This document shows positions 31,840-40,300 of a stretch of 64,000 nucleotides of DNA, piece after piece. The stretch's first letter is position 1. Each line of letters opens with the position of its first letter. This DNA is from Nitrospirales bacterium. GTDB lineage: Bacteria; Nitrospirota; Nitrospiria; Nitrospirales; UBA8639. The notes beneath the pieces were generated by a model. The model worked only from the letters and a program-made list of their open reading frames with translations. It did not search any database and had not been told where the DNA came from. The stretch spans positions 62,001-126,000 of the forward strand of contig BQIV01000006.1 in the NCBI GenBank assembly GCA_021604005.1. The letters are read 5' to 3'. Both the position numbers and the translations under genes were made by a program.

Positions 31840-32850
31840 ATGATGTCCCCACCACGGATTCGAAATTTTGAAGATTTCCGTCATGCCTTTTTTGGCTTTC
31901 GATTACCGCGAATCATCGTCACGGCGTTAGAACTTGACCTGTTCTCCGTCATGGGGCACACCCTCTGGACGGTGAAATCCTTGGCACATGCTCTTCAGGT
32001 GAGTGAACGCGGGCTGGATATTCTCTGCCGCAATTTAGCCAATGCGGGGTTGGTCCAGAAACGAGGCACACGGTATCAATGCGGACACGTGGCGCAGCGT
32101 TTCCTGAATCGTCAGAGCCATGAGTATCGTGGAGCCTATCTTGAGCTCATGCGGCAGCAATGGGATGATTGGGGACACTTAACGCAATCCGTGAAGACTG
32201 GGCAGGCAATCGATGTGAATGAACCTGAGAGCAATGCGTATCGTCGGTCGTTTAGTTGGGCCATGCATGAACGTTCCATGGATTCAGCTCGTCAGGTTGC
32301 CAAACAACTCAATCTCAAGCAGGCAAAATCATTGCTGGACGTTGGTGGTGGCCCAGGCACCTATGCGTTGGAATTTTTAGCCAAAAATCCGAAGTTATCG
32401 GCTACGCTGTTGGATAGACCTGAGGCACTGGCGGTTGCACAAGAAATTGCCGGACCATTGCGACATGGAAAACGATTAGCCTATCAGCCTGCAGATTTTC
32501 TGGCCGATCCTATTCAGGGCACCTACGATATTCTGTGGCTATCCAATATTATTCATATTTATTCGCCATCAGTGAACAGACGTCTCTTTCGTCGGCTTCG
32601 CTCACACCTCAATCCCGGAGGCCGGATATATATTCAAGATGCATTTTTACTGGATAACCATGGGCTCCGACCAGCAGAAACCAACCTCTTTGCAGTAACA
32701 ATGCTCTTATTTACGGAAAGTGGAAATACCTATAGTGCCGTTGATATTCAGGCATGGCTTAAAAAGGCCGGCTATGTACGTCCGGGGATGACCTCTCTTC
32801 AAAAGGGAACTGGAGATTGGGACGGCATGTTGATCCACGCCTTTGGGTAA
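31840..32850 (+). CDS. SAM-dependent O-methyltransferase (hydroxyneurosporene/phenolic type)
   Basis: 336 residues. The N-terminal third is a winged-helix dimerisation domain (RIIVTALELDLFSVM, LARALQ-like LAHALQVSERGLDILCRNLA). The C-terminal part is a class I methyltransferase with the SAM motif SLLDVGGGPGTYALEF, DRPEALAVAQEIAG and the substrate helix region NIIHIYSPSVNRRLFRRL. This is the Methyltransf_2 plan used on phenolic, quinone-like or carotenoid hydroxyls. The substrate is unknown. Convergent with the histidine kinase that follows. Confidence 0.83.
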   Translation: MMSPPRIRNFEDFRHAFFGFRLPRIIVTALELDLFSVMGHTLWTVKSLAHALQVSERGLDILCRNLANAGLVQKRGTRYQCGHVAQRFLNRQSHEYRGAYLELMRQQWDDWGHLTQSVKTGQAIDVNEPESNAYRRSFSWAMHERSMDSARQVAKQLNLKQAKSLLDVGGGPGTYALEFLAKNPKLSATLLDRPEALAVAQEIAGPLRHGKRLAYQPADFLADPIQGTYDILWLSNIIHIYSPSVNRRLFRRLRSHLNPGGRIYIQDAFLLDNHGLRPAETNLFAVTMLLFTESGNTYSAVDIQAWLKKAGYVRPGMTSLQKGTGDWDGMLIHAFG

Positions 32851-32916: not shown

Positions 32917-35139
32917 TCACGACGAGAGTTGCGACATGTCTTCTGTCTTGCCAACGAGCAGTGCAGCACGGTCCGGTACCGGTAAATTTATGAAGAAGGT
33001 TGCGCCTTTTCCTAATTCGCTCTTCACCTCAACATGGCCATGATGTTCTTGAATGATTTGATGCGAAATCGCCAATCCTAATCCGGTCCCTTCATGCTCT
33101 TCACTATGATGTTTTGTGGTGAAAAACGGATCGAAAATATGCTCAAGGTCATTCTGGGCAATGCCGGAACCGGTATCGCGTACTTCAATTTGGACCCAAC
33201 GTTTGCCATTCTCTTGCGGGACGGTGTAGCTGCGTACTGTAAGGGTGCCTCCATGGGTTGACATCGACTCCGTTGCGTTTAAAAAGAGGTTCAAAAGGAC
33301 TTGTTTGATTTGCTGACGATCAACGTAGACCGTTGGTAAATCATGCGCGAGATCGGTTTCAATGACGACGACTTCATGCGATGCTCGAACTCGTAACGCA
33401 TAGAGGCAGGATTCGATAATTTCATTCATATCTTCATGTTTTAAAAATGGTTCGGTTGGACGAGCATAATCTAAGATTTCTTTCGTGAGCCGTTCGATGC
33501 GTAAGACATCTTCTTTGACGACTTGTCCGAACCGTGTCACGAAGGATTGATCGGTGGCACGTTCCGGGACTAAGTCCACAAAGGCCTTGATTGATGTCAG
33601 CGGATTGCGAATTTCATGCGCTAAACCACCGGCCATGGTTTCCAGGGAGCGTAGTCGATCCGTTCGTCTCACTAAGGCTTGTGACCGCTTCAGTTCTTCA
33701 TAGAGCAGTGCATTGTCTAACGCAATGGCGGCTTCATGTGACACAGTCGTTAAGAGATCGATGTCGAGTGAAGTGTACGATGCCATCGACGTCTTGGCTC
33801 CAAGCGCACAGATTCCTAAGAGCCGTCCTTTGTTTATGAGTGGGAGGCAGACATCAATGCCTCTGACTTCAAGGTCGGCTTTCAAGTCGTGTAATGGAGA
33901 CGATTCCGATGCATCTTCTAATTCTTCGCGTATGACGATCGCTTGTACGGCGGTGAGATGTTTTGGTAAACGATCCTCAAACGTGAGTCTCGGCAACTGC
34001 TCGGTCTTGGTATCGATTCCGAATTGGGATACCGGAATGAATCCTCCTCGTTCGGTTTCTACCAGATATAATACGACGCGCTGAATGCCCATGACCTGTC
34101 CCAGCATATGTACGATTTCGCGAGCCAGCGGCTTGAGTTTTAAGTTGGTGACCAGTGATTTAGAAAATCTTGACAGTGCCTGGTACATGTCATGGCGTTC
34201 ACGAAATAAGGCTTTGGAGACGGCGATGTGGAGACAGGACATAATGCGATAGGCGAGTATAGTGAGTAATGTCACCACCACCAGTAACACTACGGAAAAC
34301 TCAAAGTTGATTTCTTGGAAATATACCTCTTGGGCATAGAGAAACACGGCAAAGGCCGGCAGGGAGATCACGGCTAGGGGAAATAGAAAGGTCACGCTTT
34401 TTTCTATGGCAAGCGTGAAATCGAAAATGCGATATCGAATGAGTGAAAAGGCCATGGCGACAAAGTACAGGCTGACGAGAATTGTTCCGTACGGTGGGAG
34501 CGGAACCCCATACCATAACGGAAAGTTCGTGGCGCCACCTCCCCAGCCGACCAATGATCCGGTAATCAGAACTAAATATTGATTGCGGCGCATGCCCTTT
34601 GTGTTTTTGTAGGCTCTGGCAAACAAGTATGTGGCATAGGTAAGCGAAAAGATAAACCAGAGAAGAAACACGGGAAAAACCACTCCCGGTCGTGGCCAGT
34701 AGGCAAATCCCATTTGTCCTTCGACTCGATCGACCATCAGGGGCGTGAAGTCGAACAAGAGCAGGAGGACAGTCAGAACGCTGCCTGCAAGCAGTAAATG
34801 TCGATGTTTTGTGTATAAACCTAGGAATGTCAGGACATGGTATAGATGGGTGATAGGAATCAGAATCGCGCCAGCCATGAGTAACCTGACAAAGAGCAAG
34901 GCCATCTCTTCTGAGTTGGTGAGATGCCACGCGCAGTAAAAGTAACTCCAGATTGAGAGACTGAGGCAATAGACCCCAAATGCTTGATGCTTGAGATTAT
35001 GCGGAGCCCGGGAATATAGGAATAATCCAAGGCCTGAGCCGAGAAGCCCATTCATGAGACTGCTGAATGCGTAGAAATTCATGAGAAATTCGGCGGTAGC
35101 ATACGACAAACCCCCATTCACTTGAGCCATGATGCTCAA
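32917..35139 (-). CDS. Membrane sensor histidine kinase with GAF domain (orphan)
   Basis: 740 residues. About eight to ten N-terminal helices (1-310) form a 7TM/HisK_N-like sensor, followed by a GAF domain (about 330-480). The kinase core has the HisKA H-box GGLAHEIRNPLTSIKAF with the phosphorylated His near 508, the N-box QVLLNLFLNATES, G1 DTGSGI, F-box FDPFFTTK and G2 GTGLGL. It resembles PrsK-type kinases of PEP-CTERM/exopolysaccharide systems, but that is a guess. No response regulator lies beside it, so its partner is elsewhere. Confidence 0.87.
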   Translation of the reverse strand: MSIMAQVNGGLSYATAEFLMNFYAFSSLMNGLLGSGLGLFLYSRAPHNLKHQAFGVYCLSLSIWSYFYCAWHLTNSEEMALLFVRLLMAGAILIPITHLYHVLTFLGLYTKHRHLLLAGSVLTVLLLLFDFTPLMVDRVEGQMGFAYWPRPGVVFPVFLLWFIFSLTYATYLFARAYKNTKGMRRNQYLVLITGSLVGWGGGATNFPLWYGVPLPPYGTILVSLYFVAMAFSLIRYRIFDFTLAIEKSVTFLFPLAVISLPAFAVFLYAQEVYFQEINFEFSVVLLVVVTLLTILAYRIMSCLHIAVSKALFRERHDMYQALSRFSKSLVTNLKLKPLAREIVHMLGQVMGIQRVVLYLVETERGGFIPVSQFGIDTKTEQLPRLTFEDRLPKHLTAVQAIVIREELEDASESSPLHDLKADLEVRGIDVCLPLINKGRLLGICALGAKTSMASYTSLDIDLLTTVSHEAAIALDNALLYEELKRSQALVRRTDRLRSLETMAGGLAHEIRNPLTSIKAFVDLVPERATDQSFVTRFGQVVKEDVLRIERLTKEILDYARPTEPFLKHEDMNEIIESCLYALRVRASHEVVVIETDLAHDLPTVYVDRQQIKQVLLNLFLNATESMSTHGGTLTVRSYTVPQENGKRWVQIEVRDTGSGIAQNDLEHIFDPFFTTKHHSEEHEGTGLGLAISHQIIQEHHGHVEVKSELGKGATFFINLPVPDRAALLVGKTEDMSQLSS

Positions 35140-35262
35140 GCAATGGGCAGTTGCCTACATGTGAATAAAGCCGGATGAAGCGAGATGGTATGAATGCGAG
35201 AAGAAAACTAACTGTAGCACTCCAGGGAGGTCTTGCCAAGGGGGGACGGGTGTAACAGGGGA

Positions 35263-35287
35263 CCGGAGAATTTAAGTAATTCTCCGG
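35263..35287. repeat. Hairpin-forming inverted repeat between two minus-strand genes
   Basis: CCGGAGAATT (35263-35272) and AATTCTCCGG (35278-35287) form a perfect 10-bp stem with a 5-base loop. It lies downstream of the LuxD-like fusion gene and upstream of the histidine kinase start on the same strand. There is no U-tract, so it could be an RNA-processing or weak terminator hairpin or an operator. Confidence 0.45.
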
Positions 35288-35351
35288 CCATGTGATTCCC
35301 GAGCCTTAGATGAACGAGTATCATCACGCGCGATGCGCGAGTCATTTACGG

Positions 35352-37703
35352 CTATGCGGCATTCGCGAGGGTCGTGTGCGGGACGGCCGACGTTGCTGTT
35401 GAGAGAGAGTTTTTTTTAATGACTGCAATATAGGCTTGATTCGCAAAGGTACTATACACCTTTGGTGTAACTGAGGGGTCGACTTGTTGCAAAAGATAGC
35501 GTAGTTCGTCTTCACCGTGAAATTGGAAGATACCATCTCCTTCTGCCTGCCGAATTTTGCCGGAATTACTTAACAGATTTCTGGCTTCTTCCACTTCCTC
35601 GGGTTTTGTTGTTTCTTGGACAGAATTTGTATAAATGACCGACAGGTCCGAGTTTGGTTTCAGATTACTGAGGACAAGCGTGCCGTTTGGTGTCAGTACC
35701 CGAAACAGCTCGCGCAATGTCGCGATTGGATCATTGAGGTATCCGAGGACAAGATTCGAGACAATTTTATCAAATGTATTGTCGTGAAACGGGAGAGGAT
35801 GATTTAAGTCTGTACAGGAAAAGGTACTCTCGATGTCCAGGCTATCCGACTGATGGCGGGACACAACCGTCTGAAGGTTTTTTTGCGCATGCTGCAAGGC
35901 GGCTGGAATAAAATCAATGCCGACATATCGCAATGGTTTTGGCCGTTCCTCTTGTTTCGTCTGACTATTCATTTTCTCGTGTAGGTAGAAGAATGGCGCA
36001 AAGTTGCCATTGCCGCATCCTGCATCAAGAATGGTTTCGCCGGCTTCCACGGGGCCCATGAGTTTGACCATATGACTCAGTAATTGTTGATAGTCTCCAT
36101 AGTTCACGATGTGGTGAAAATGAGCAAGGTAATCGTGCCAAAAGTCTGAGAGTTGCTCGGTCATGCCTCCGGCTTTTCGTTGCTCTCGCTCCTGCTTATT
36201 TTGTAAGCCAATAGCTTTTCGTGTCGGTTCAATGAGGGCGGGGTGTGCGGGCAAGACGTTGAATAGTGTTTGGCAATGTTTTGCTATTTGCCGATAGACG
36301 AGTTTCGCTTTGCGGGGATTTTCGAGAATACGGTGAAGACCGCCGGGAATGACGTACCAGTCTAGGAGTTCCTGTTTACAACCGGTTGTGACGGTTTTGA
36401 GGGAATCATGTTGTACCCATGCGTCGCGTTCGGCACTCACGATAATCACCGGCGTACGAATGGCCGAGACATCGTGAGTCGTTGACGACATATCTGAAAA
36501 ATGTCCATTGAGAGCATCCGCTAACCAATGTTGTACGGAAACATTAAATCCTAATATATTCGAGACGCCCTTTCTTTCACCTTGTTGATAGTTTCCAACA
36601 AGGTCTTCTTGGTGGACCGCGTGAAGCGTATGTTGAACGTCGATGATGGGCGTGATGAGAATCAAGGCGTCGATGTTGGCGTGTTGCGCCGTGGCTTTGA
36701 TCGCCACTCTTCCGCTCAGGCTTGTCGCCACTAATCCGCGCGGGCTCTGTGGCCAGGTTTGAGCGGCATATCGTACAACGGTTTCAAGGTCTTCACGCAT
36801 GGTGGATAATGTGGTGTCGACATGTTCACCGTCGCTATCTCCGACATGATTCGTATGGTCGTATCGAATGACCTGAAATCCATTTAATGCAAAATAATAT
36901 GCGAGTGTAATGTATTCACGCTTCGTTTCCCCATACCCTGGGGAAATGATGATCACCGGGCTCCCCGGGGGCAGAGAGGATTCCGGGGCATCATGATAGG
37001 CACGAATTAGCTGTCCGTGCGTATTGGGAAATGCCAGGGGAGTGCTGACAATGTGCATGCCGTGCGACTCGGGTTGTTTTGACTTCTGGCCATGAACTGA
37101 CTCTTCTTCACACGTAAGTGTTTTCAAACATCTACGCTGCATGCCGTGAGGAAGGGGTTCAATAATTCGAGCGACGCGTTCTTGCGTCGTATCGTTTGTT
37201 GTGTGCGAGCCTGCCACCATTTGTATGGGCTCCATTTTCCATAAGCAATCCTTTGAATCTGCTGAAACGAGCGTTCCTCGTAAAAAGGTGGAAGAATCGG
37301 GAGAGGAAGGATGTAGTAATGCCCGTTTGACTTGATGCCACTTCAAATCATCGAGCGGGTCATACGCAACGTCTATCCGCACTCGAGCCCAGCGGCTTTC
37401 AGGCGTATCTCCCAGTGGTGTGACTCGTTCGATATGACTTTCCATTGACACGTCAAATCCTGGTGCGTGTAATTCCATGTGCAGCGTCTGAGAGAGTACG
37501 ACTAACGGATATCCGTCAATCACCAGATGGACATGTGAGCGAGTCATGGAGTCGACGTAACCCTCCCAGGAAGCTCCATTCCCTTCAAGTGAAACATGTA
37601 GCCCAATGGAAGATGGATGAGCCTGGGTTGTCCGGACGATGTTTGGTTGTACGGTACCCGCGGTACGTGAATTCTTTAGAGACGTTATGGAATGCATACC
37701 CAC
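35352..37703 (-). CDS. LuxD-like acyl hydrolase fused to a class I methyltransferase
   Basis: 783 residues in three parts. Residues about 30-125 are a beta-rich N-domain that may be a degenerate PilZ-like barrel (no RxxxR is seen, so weak). Residues about 215-480 are an alpha/beta-hydrolase close to LuxD acyl transferases: ISPGYGETKREYITLAYYFA, RYDHTNHVGDSDG, the nucleophile elbow ATSLS (Ser328), Asp427 in ERDAWV and His457 in GGLHRILEN. Residues about 535-760 are a methyltransferase with ETILDAGCGNGNF and a DxF-type motif IV (NTFDKIVSNLVLGYL). LuxD cleaves fatty acyl-ACP to free acid; a fused methyltransferase could methylate the product or act separately. No luxC or luxE is nearby. Confidence 0.78.
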   Translation of the reverse strand: MGMHSITSLKNSRTAGTVQPNIVRTTQAHPSSIGLHVSLEGNGASWEGYVDSMTRSHVHLVIDGYPLVVLSQTLHMELHAPGFDVSMESHIERVTPLGDTPESRWARVRIDVAYDPLDDLKWHQVKRALLHPSSPDSSTFLRGTLVSADSKDCLWKMEPIQMVAGSHTTNDTTQERVARIIEPLPHGMQRRCLKTLTCEEESVHGQKSKQPESHGMHIVSTPLAFPNTHGQLIRAYHDAPESSLPPGSPVIIISPGYGETKREYITLAYYFALNGFQVIRYDHTNHVGDSDGEHVDTTLSTMREDLETVVRYAAQTWPQSPRGLVATSLSGRVAIKATAQHANIDALILITPIIDVQHTLHAVHQEDLVGNYQQGERKGVSNILGFNVSVQHWLADALNGHFSDMSSTTHDVSAIRTPVIIVSAERDAWVQHDSLKTVTTGCKQELLDWYVIPGGLHRILENPRKAKLVYRQIAKHCQTLFNVLPAHPALIEPTRKAIGLQNKQEREQRKAGGMTEQLSDFWHDYLAHFHHIVNYGDYQQLLSHMVKLMGPVEAGETILDAGCGNGNFAPFFYLHEKMNSQTKQEERPKPLRYVGIDFIPAALQHAQKNLQTVVSRHQSDSLDIESTFSCTDLNHPLPFHDNTFDKIVSNLVLGYLNDPIATLRELFRVLTPNGTLVLSNLKPNSDLSVIYTNSVQETTKPEEVEEARNLLSNSGKIRQAEGDGIFQFHGEDELRYLLQQVDPSVTPKVYSTFANQAYIAVIKKNSLSTATSAVPHTTLANAA

Positions 37704-38194
37704 ACCTCATCGTTAAATTGTGCCTAATATATTTACCTAGCTAAATTTACTTGTATTCAGGGCAAGACCGATCCACACGACAGATCGAACTGCCAACAAA
37801 TTAGAAAATTAGAAAAGGTATGATGTATGAAATAGAGGGGGGAGAAACGTGTATCGGTAACTGTTGAGTCTTACGCTGTCTGTATCATGAATTCATAATC
37901 GTGTTAGAAAAAATTTTCGAATTTACAGAAGGGATACAGCAACCTCTATGCCAACAACACATGCAAGAATATTTTCCATGAGAGGTTGCAAATACCTGAT
38001 TATTTCTAGGAATAATCTGCTGATCAGGGCATTTCTTTCTTGTGTCTTTGCTGTGCATTTCTTGTGGTCTGTCGAGATCATGACAAGGTGCAGTCATCTG
38101 CGTGGTGGTATTTGACATCATGAATACTCATAATCCATTGACTCGTTGTGTGCCGATCCCTAGAATTTCACAAACTTCACGAGGAGGCTTCATT
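37704..38194. other. AT-rich divergent region between the LuxD-like fusion gene and the EF-G paralogue
   Basis: 491 bases with no convincing gene. A minus-strand frame at 37885-38121 is cysteine-rich but has no ribosome-binding site or family character. The region has AT-rich stretches suited to divergent promoters. A strong ribosome-binding site GAGGAGG (38181-38187) belongs to the EF-G-like gene. Confidence 0.45.
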
Positions 38195-40300
38195 ATGACC
38201 AATGCTAGCCAGCCCATCCGTAACGTAGCTCTTATCGCTGCTCCAGGTTCAGGGAAAACGCTGTTGTGTGAAGCGTTGGCCTATACGGCCAATGCGATCG
38301 ACACCATGGGGACGACTGATAAGGGAAATACGATTTCAGATTTTGAGCTCGAAGAAATTCACCGTCACCATTCGGTAAGTGCGTCCCTTCTGCAATTCGA
38401 ATGGAAGGGCACGCGGATGAATGTGATCGATACCCCAGGGGCGTTAGATTTTTTGAGTGAGGTGAAGTCATGTCTCGGGGTCGTGGATGGTGTGATTTTG
38501 GTGGTGGATGCTGAGGATGGCGTCAAAAGTGAGTTAGAGAAAATCTGGGAGCATATGCGGGAGCGAGGCGTGCCGTGCCTCCTCTTTATCAATGGCCTGG
38601 ATAAAGAGCGGGCCGAACATGTGACGGTGATTCAGCAATGTTGTGACGCGTTGGCAATCAATGGAGTGCCGCTGACTCTCCCTGCCGGTAAAGATGTGAC
38701 GGAGTCGGGAATCATCGATGTCATTCACCGAACCGTTATTTCCTCAAATAAGAGGACGCCGAAAATTCAATGCCGGGAATGTTCTGCAGATGATGCGCCG
38801 CAGTTTGAGGAGACCCGGCGGCAATTGGTTGAAAACGTTGCTGAAACCAACGATCAGTTGGTTGAGAAATATTTAGTGGATGGTGATTTGTCGAATGAAG
38901 ACCTTGTTGAAGGTCTTACGTTTGGGACTTTGGAAGGACGCATTATTCCAGTCTTGTGCGGTTCCGCACTCCACAATGCTGGGACGTCCTTGCTCCTGGA
39001 TGCGATTCATGATTATTTGCCGTCCCCAGATGATTGGTCACACACACATCCAATCAGCGGGAAAGATCCGCATTCGGGAGAAATTCTTATTCGTGAGGGC
39101 CATGTGTCCGAACCTTTTTCCGGAACAGCTTTTAAGACGACGATCGATCCGTTTATGGGTCGGCTGACGTATGTGCGTGTCCATTCCGGCGTCTTGCAGG
39201 CCGACTCCGGATTTTTCAATGCCACGCAAGGAACCAAAGAAAAAGGCGGACATATTTTTTGGGCATTAGGCAAGAAGTTTACGCAGACCCGGACTATTCA
39301 TGCAGGGGACATTGCCGCAATTGCGAAACTAAAAGACACGCAAACAGGCGATACCTTGTGTGAGGAAAAACACCAGATTCAGTTTGCATCGCCACAACTG
39401 ATACGACCGGTGATGTCCTTTGCCCTTGAACCCAAGAGTACACATGACATTGATAAAGTCAGCGTCGGTTTGCACAAACTCGTTGAAGAAGATCCTTCGT
39501 TAGAATTTCTCAGGAATGAAGAAACGAAGGAAATGCTGATCAGTGGAGTTGGGCAGACACATATCGATGTTACCTTGGAGAAGTTGAAGCGGAAGTATGG
39601 GGTTGAGGTGAATCTTCATACTCCCAAAATTCCCTATAAAGAGACGATTCAGCGAATGGCACAGGCCCAAGGAAAATACAAAAAACAGACAGGGGGGCAT
39701 GGACAATATGGCGATTGCTGGCTGCAACTTGACCCGCTGCCGCATGGTTCAGGGTTTGAGTTTCAGAACAAAATCGTTGGAGGCGCTATCCCACGGAATT
39801 TTATTCCAGCTGTTGAAAAGGGCATAGTCGAGGCCATGCATCACGGGACGGTTGCCGAGTATCCGGTTGTCGACATTCGAGTGACGGTCTATGATGGTTC
39901 GCACCATCCCGTTGATTCATCGGAAATGGCATTCAAGGTAGCCGCTTCGATGGGCTTTAAAAAAGCGATGGAGTTAGCCCAGCCAACGCTATTGGAGCCA
40001 ATCATGCTGCTAGAAGTTACCGTTCCCGATGATATGGTTGGCACAATCATCGGCGATCTTAATGGCAGGCGGGGGCGAATACAGGGGATGTCAACAAAAG
40101 GCCATCATCAAATCGTCAAAGCCATCACGCCTCTTGCTGAAATTCTTCAGTATGCGTCGGCTTTAACATCGATGACGGCAGGAAAAGGGAGTTATATCAT
40201 GGAGTTTTGGGGCTATGAGGAAGTTCCAAGAGAGCAGAGGATGAAGATTGTTGCCGAGCATAAAAAAGACCTAGCGGAAGTCTCATCGTCGGCAAGCTGA
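38195..40300 (+). CDS. EF-G-like GTPase with atypical switch residues
   Basis: 701 residues from ATG 38195, 7 bases after GAGGAGG; a longer frame back to 38102 is not needed. All five EF-G domains are present, with domain II (GRLTYVRVHSGVLQADSGFF), domain IV GGHGQYGDCWLQLDPLP and domain V LLEPIMLLEVTVPDDMVGTIIGDLNGRRG. P-loop is APGSGKT (Lys21). Switch II reads DTPGALDF, with Ala83 where the catalytic His of DTPGHVDF stands, and the G4 motif is NGLD (133-136) instead of NKxD. It is thus an EF-G paralogue of the EF-G2/FusA2 type, perhaps poor in GTP hydrolysis or altered in nucleotide choice. Its cellular role is unknown. It stands alone. Confidence 0.88.
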   Translation: MTNASQPIRNVALIAAPGSGKTLLCEALAYTANAIDTMGTTDKGNTISDFELEEIHRHHSVSASLLQFEWKGTRMNVIDTPGALDFLSEVKSCLGVVDGVILVVDAEDGVKSELEKIWEHMRERGVPCLLFINGLDKERAEHVTVIQQCCDALAINGVPLTLPAGKDVTESGIIDVIHRTVISSNKRTPKIQCRECSADDAPQFEETRRQLVENVAETNDQLVEKYLVDGDLSNEDLVEGLTFGTLEGRIIPVLCGSALHNAGTSLLLDAIHDYLPSPDDWSHTHPISGKDPHSGEILIREGHVSEPFSGTAFKTTIDPFMGRLTYVRVHSGVLQADSGFFNATQGTKEKGGHIFWALGKKFTQTRTIHAGDIAAIAKLKDTQTGDTLCEEKHQIQFASPQLIRPVMSFALEPKSTHDIDKVSVGLHKLVEEDPSLEFLRNEETKEMLISGVGQTHIDVTLEKLKRKYGVEVNLHTPKIPYKETIQRMAQAQGKYKKQTGGHGQYGDCWLQLDPLPHGSGFEFQNKIVGGAIPRNFIPAVEKGIVEAMHHGTVAEYPVVDIRVTVYDGSHHPVDSSEMAFKVAASMGFKKAMELAQPTLLEPIMLLEVTVPDDMVGTIIGDLNGRRGRIQGMSTKGHHQIVKAITPLAEILQYASALTSMTAGKGSYIMEFWGYEEVPREQRMKIVAEHKKDLAEVSSSAS

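Follow-up and report, generated by a model that had tools for sequence, protein, structure and literature searches.

Fatty-acid signal logic is found in the DSF/Rpf system (RpfF-RpfC-RpfG), and LuxD, the myristoyl-ACP thioesterase or acyl transferase of the lux operon (PF02273; PDB 1tht), sets fatty acids free from acyl-ACP. Carboxylates are among the groups that class I methyltransferases can methylate. Closest in layout to the locus described here is the Ralstonia phc operon, which the relevant passages of PMC8578825 give as the methyltransferase PhcB, the kinase PhcS, the REC-kinase PhcR and the REC protein PhcQ; according to passages of PMC8578825 and PMC11960443, the 3-hydroxy fatty acid methyl esters made by PhcB are sensed by the neighbouring kinase PhcS.

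The window, a 64,000-nucleotide stretch of a Nitrospirales contig (BQIV01000006.1), holds a gene that joins a LuxD-like hydrolase to a SAM-dependent methyltransferase and lies directly upstream of a histidine kinase gene. The fusion had been proposed in a first-pass annotation, and is confirmed by Pfam domains, by homologs and by the motifs of an alignment (A1) of 26 members, comprising the window protein and 25 relatives. The motifs then picked out (RYD..HVG, ATSLS, DAWV, LHRILEN) are invariant or near-invariant columns of A1. The features of the enzyme gene are as follows.

35352..37703, minus strand: fusion gene for a PilZ-like domain, a LuxD-like hydrolase and a SAM methyltransferase, 783 aa
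37245..37604, minus strand: predicted diverged PilZ domain in which the c-di-GMP motif lacks its [DN]xSxxG part (AF2 model, VIA-align, hhalign, motif check)
36186..37016, minus strand: LuxD-like alpha/beta hydrolase domain (Pfam PF02273, 1tht by sequence and fold, tree)
36720..36722, minus strand: putative catalytic Ser328 (ATSLSGR), aligned to the Ser of LuxD ASLSA, conserved
36423..36425, minus strand: putative catalytic Asp427 (ERDAWV), aligned to the first Asp of LuxD DDWV, conserved
36333..36335, minus strand: putative catalytic His457 (GLHRILEN), aligned to the His of LuxD SHDLGEN, conserved
35583..36044, minus strand: SAM-dependent methyltransferase core (LDAGCGNG, VGID, SNLVLGY, NLKP; Pfam and conserved motifs)

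The frame is open over 783 codons from a GTG start at 37703; the ATG at 37697, in the same frame, offers an alternative start and was used for the window protein in A1. This ORF is real, neither a chance frame nor a lone reading, because 27 of the 48 genomes searched in the same family hold the fusion at E < 1e-100 and the 25 A1 relatives are 34-54% identical to the window protein. Contigs C30 and C9 of the window's own genome gave matches of the ordinary hydrolase and methyltransferase kind. Rfam gave no matches over the whole window, and a promoter and terminator scan gave the same counts as in shuffles. Divergent from the fusion gene lies an EF-G-like gene (38102-40300, plus strand), with homologs in the same place at 15 of 54 named loci.

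Several lines of evidence mark the hydrolase as LuxD-like rather than an ordinary S33 enzyme. PF02273 scores 94.1 bits in the window protein against a Pfam cut-off of 20.3 (Hydrolase_4 scores 75.2) and matches 26/26 A1 members at E ≤ 0.01. NCBIfam LuxD is the best of 44 families for the protein at 92.7 bits, short of that model's equivalog cut-off of 420 bits. Vibrio harveyi LuxD (1tht) is the top PDB sequence match of the hydrolase part (2.9e-20; next 1.5e-7), and also stands first in a Foldseek search with the whole-protein AF2 model (pLDDT 73; 8.3e-17, next other protein 1.3e-12), whose list is mainly hydrolases and says little on the other domains. Three matches were found among 72,556 plasmid records, and the best (7e-15) is an acyl transferase encoded between acyl-CoA reductase and acyl ligase genes on a laboratory plasmid, i.e. 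a lux-type LuxD. When 41 hydrolase domains were placed in a tree, several of them long-branched including the single LuxD row, a 100/97 branch parted 36 rows (the fusion proteins together with LuxD and one protein from Burkholderiales) from five ordinary S33 hydrolases. The first-pass annotation had named grouping with ordinary serine hydrolases as an outcome that would overturn it; the domain lies on the LuxD side of that branch, so the outcome found is the opposite one. A phage search gave no match for the hydrolase. The Burkholderiales protein is a LuxD-like hydrolase in a 399 aa frame (L145, genome G365), the sole A1 match among 300 Burkholderiales genomes and one that covers the hydrolase part only.

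The Ser of ASLSA, the first Asp of DDWV and the His of SHDLGEN, which we take to be the catalytic residues of LuxD, align with Ser328, Asp427 and His457. An active-site survey took 105 proteins, 85 of them with distinct C-terminal ends and 79 of these outside a long paralog type treated below. Among these 79 homologs the triad is intact wherever its sites are covered: Ser in 75/75, Asp in 78/78 and His in 79/79, the Ser site being missing in four rows and the Asp site in one. Fold, triad and motifs are thus common to LuxD and the window hydrolase, but the latter is flanked, in one polypeptide, by a PilZ-type domain and a methyltransferase, and its gene adjoins a kinase instead of a reductase gene. 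The lux partners had been called absent. This holds for LuxE, with no match in the window's genome, and less cleanly for LuxC, with two weak matches there (5.7e-5 and 3.4e-4) above Pfam's low cut-off; since the same model matches 9 of 14 control genomes, E. coli included, we read these as probable cross-hits to aldehyde dehydrogenases.

The methyltransferase is matched by several class I models (PF13847 at 8e-20, PF08241 at 5.1e-15), and both glycines checked in SAM motif I are conserved in 79/79 homologs outside the long paralog type. Its best NCBIfam methyltransferase model is BioC, at 50 bits against 185, and the subfamily does not reveal a substrate, which we counted against a role as signal maker. 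Two proteins of about 1000 aa (L187, L188) come from another taxonomic family of the same class as the window's family, with C-termini that match the methyltransferase of the fusion.

The N-terminal domain had been called sensory-like, a description that we correct: on modelled structure it is a diverged PilZ domain. When a separate AF2 model of it (pLDDT 91) was compared with other structures by VIA-align, PilZ-containing chains, among them BcsA, YcgR, PP4397 and MrkH, filled the first 19 rows (Z 9.7-6.8) of 995 chains aligned, and hhalign, comparing the profile of the window clade's N-terminus with that of the Pfam-recognised Nitrospira-side PilZ domains, gave 95% at E 2e-8. Plain Foldseek gave no match below 0.001, though PilZ chains are among its top rows; the Pfam PilZ model matches 0/26 A1 members, and the N-terminal sequence found nothing in the PDB below E 0.4. 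Pfam does recognise PilZ in homologs from Nitrospira and other groups (L048, L034, L036, L037, L059, L117, L118, L121, L133, L135, L136, L139 and L082). Of 14 Nitrospira-side PilZ domains, 14/14 carry RRxxxR and 5/14 the strict [DN]xSxxG, most of the others having Ser for Asp/Asn; in the window clade [DN]xSxxG is found in 0/26 and an upstream RxxxR in 2/26. The window N-terminus thus shares its predicted fold with the c-di-GMP receptors YcgR and BcsA but lacks their binding motif, and its clade has probably kept the fold and lost c-di-GMP binding.

A functional pair is supported most strongly by the gene immediately downstream, a tight partner of the fusion enzyme that the first-pass annotation did not mention.

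32917..35082, minus strand: partner histidine kinase (Pfam HisKA_7TM, GAF, HisKA and HATPase_c; synteny), from the conserved start MNFYAFS, the ORF running upstream to 35139
34417..35046, minus strand: 7TM sensor region and putative signal receptor of the kinase (PF16927, 57.5 bits; tree)

A 7TM profile was built from seven segments of the window and five of these loci, which match by construction; with it, 77 of the 79 distinct fusion homologs are seen to have a same-strand 7TM kinase no more than 500 nt downstream. The two misses are L007, where by eye a glutamine-synthetase-like gene follows on the opposite strand, and L013, for which the downstream stretch covered is only 280 nt. Pfam finds all four kinase domains in L034, L048, L060 and L065, and three in L082, where HisKA is not listed. 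The kinase type is rare in the genomes searched for it: IMCC26134 (G279), Nitrospira defluvii (G287) and G283 have one HisKA_7TM gene each, the adjacent one, while G280 and the window's genome have three each. In the kinase tree, the adjacent kinases of four phyla, together with proteins from L203 and L205, lie on one side of a 99/96 branch. The link to signalling that had been suggested thus gains support from genomic context.

A relation to the PrsK/exosortase kinases was rejected, the window kinase scoring 122 bits against the TIGR02916 cut-off of 300. L203 (3365-5542), on contig C18 of the window's genome, encodes a second 7TM protein, which falls near the partner kinases and in which HisKA and HATPase were not detected; a separate PAS-kinase-REC protein follows. 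A further 7TM kinase of that genome (L204) has no fusion-type enzyme in the stretch read. By eye, an inverted repeat (GGAGAATT..AATTCTCC; 35260-35291, minus strand) lies between the fusion gene and the kinase, unflagged by the terminator scan. Beyond the kinase, on the opposite strand, is an O-methyltransferase gene (PF00891 with a dimerisation domain; 31840-32850, plus strand) with a homolog in 12 of 54 named loci.

Fusion and 7TM kinase lie adjacent in at least four phyla (Nitrospirota, Verrucomicrobiota, Omnitrophota and Elusimicrobiota). The matches listed include N. defluvii (L048), Omnitrophota (L060, L061), Verrucomicrobiota with Opitutaceae among them (L063-L081, L084-L086), and one Elusimicrobiota record in two overlapping frames (L082); many listed records are metagenome-assembled, and the single Elusimicrobiota one may be a misbinned contig. 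A first search of genome contigs with the window protein alone as query had found nothing. In the phylum sample, 54/245 genomes match A1 at 1e-25, about 25 of them by score with the full-strength form and the rest mainly with the long paralog; the samples of Verrucomicrobiota and Omnitrophota gave 4/194 and 1/145. Within the window's own family, the genus coded g2 has the fusion in 0/14 genomes. This patchy family distribution was counted against the signal-maker reading.

Relatives surround the pair with further signalling genes, such as those for REC-histidine kinases or REC-HD-GYP proteins. Further genes of the verrucomicrobial loci encode a divergent GAF-kinase, a REC-HisKA-HATPase protein and a GAF protein to which REC matches weakly. 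A FadL/OMPP1-type outer-membrane protein (Pfam 4.7e-50 in L065) is encoded upstream in 15 of the 18 loci that offer 3.2 kb or more on that side, being absent in L069, L073 and L080; four loci with a shorter upstream stretch were excluded. In Omnitrophota L060 the additions are another 7TM kinase and a REC-HD-GYP protein. Beside the window's fusion gene there is no response regulator, FadL gene or HD-GYP gene; the first two absences, like the gap of about 270 nt between the putative synthase and the kinase, across which the two genes need not be co-transcribed, were counted against signal making.

Compared with PhcBSRQ, fusion loci likewise place a methyltransferase gene next to a histidine kinase gene, and the REC-HisKA-HATPase gene in the verrucomicrobial L065 cluster is like PhcR. 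To our knowledge, however, PhcB has no acyl hydrolase domain, and no fusion was found in the 300 Burkholderiales genomes; the likeness claimed is one of logic and layout, not membership of PhcBSRQ. With DSF/Rpf, related clusters (L060, L148) have REC-HD-GYP regulators in common, but the fusion enzyme lacks an RpfF-type crotonase domain and the window's gene has no HD-GYP neighbour.

By analogy with PhcB-PhcS we favour, at a little under an even chance, a fusion enzyme that releases and methylates an acyl group, so making a lipid signal that the adjacent kinase senses. The LuxD-like domain would hydrolyse an acyl thioester, probably acyl-ACP, through its Ser-Asp-His triad, and the fused methyltransferase would act on the released acid, giving most simply its methyl ester, or on a derivative of that acid. 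The 7TM-GAF kinase may then sense this lipid-like product and would pass a phosphoryl group on to response regulators, whose genes lie elsewhere in the window's genome and next door in relatives; the PilZ domain may ancestrally have placed the synthase under c-di-GMP control. Signalling could also run the other way. A receiver domain at the N-terminus of some Nitrospirota homologs (L034, L037) suggests that the enzyme may be the kinase's output, not its input, and the main rival makes it an effector: the 7TM kinase would sense an external cue, and a phosphorelay, with c-di-GMP as well in former times, would control a LuxD/methyltransferase enzyme that remodels membrane or envelope lipids. PilZ domains in several families speak for this, and the verrucomicrobial FadL-type protein would suit lipid handling. 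However, the 26 A1 members and the scanned L065, L072 and L060 have no receiver domain and keep the same kinase, and no recurring lipid-biosynthesis gene stands beside the pair among the clusters read. We consider an effector role unlikely, if well short of negligible.

Having both activities in one polypeptide beside a kinase could also mean that they oppose each other, an esterase against a carboxyl methyltransferase (cf. CheB/CheR), setting a protein or lipid methylation level that the kinase reads; a paralog branch that has lost the triad yet mostly kept SAM motif I would accord with this. The LuxD-like character of the hydrolase in PDB sequence, fold and tree argues against it, as does the absence of any chemoreceptor gene among those noticed around the pair, and we hold opposing activities to be improbable. 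Even more so is a housekeeping enzyme for lipid or polyketide tailoring, with a kinase kept alongside by descent only: both domain families are broad and, in the window's family, the housekeeping genes nearby are conserved, but the adjacency recurs in four phyla with differing other neighbours, and the kinase type is rare.

The paralog branch just mentioned consists of Nitrospirota proteins of about 1200-1450 aa arranged REC-PAS-(kinase-like)-PilZ-PilZ-LuxD-MT (L146-L186, e.g. L146:3753-7952, minus strand). Downstream in L146 and L148 are a GAF-kinase and an NtrC-type regulator, with a REC-HD-GYP protein also in L148. From 44 sequences, 42 were kept after exclusion of L187 and L188 as another type. 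At the nucleophile position 41/42 have Asp and L059 has Gly, and 0/42 confidently keep the catalytic His, L176 showing a His in a poorly aligned stretch. Because the nucleophile has changed and the His is lost, this hydrolase is probably dead and the protein a regulator instead. Many genomes of the phylum carry the long paralog without the active form, which disfavours a simple receptor role for it.

In the open-licence literature we found no description of the fusion or of its pairing with the kinase. What is new here is the enzyme architecture within a predicted lipid-signal circuit. The pairing, in relatives of nitrite oxidisers and a few other phyla, suggests an undescribed fat-derived signalling system. 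That it is a cell-cell or self-signalling system of at least four phyla, several nitrite-oxidising Nitrospira lineages included, with a fused acyl-releasing and methylating synthase, a dedicated 7TM kinase and, in Nitrospirota, a dead-hydrolase (Ser to Asp) REC/PAS/PilZ copy as regulatory reader, is possible but on balance doubtful. If true, nitrite-oxidising Nitrospira and several poorly cultured phyla would have a lipid-type signalling circuit with synthase and receptor identified, making signalling in nitrifiers directly testable; LuxD, known from bioluminescence, would have been recruited to signal synthesis; and active synthase, REC-fused synthase and dead-hydrolase regulator would form an evolutionary series.

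A simpler arrangement occurs in the genome of Omnitrophota L060, where L205 (4487-8045) encodes a PilZ-methyltransferase protein without the hydrolase, directly upstream of another 7TM kinase; its domain matches are weak, below Pfam cut-offs except as related models. Methyltransferase and kinase may thus be the minimal pair, a PhcB-like one.
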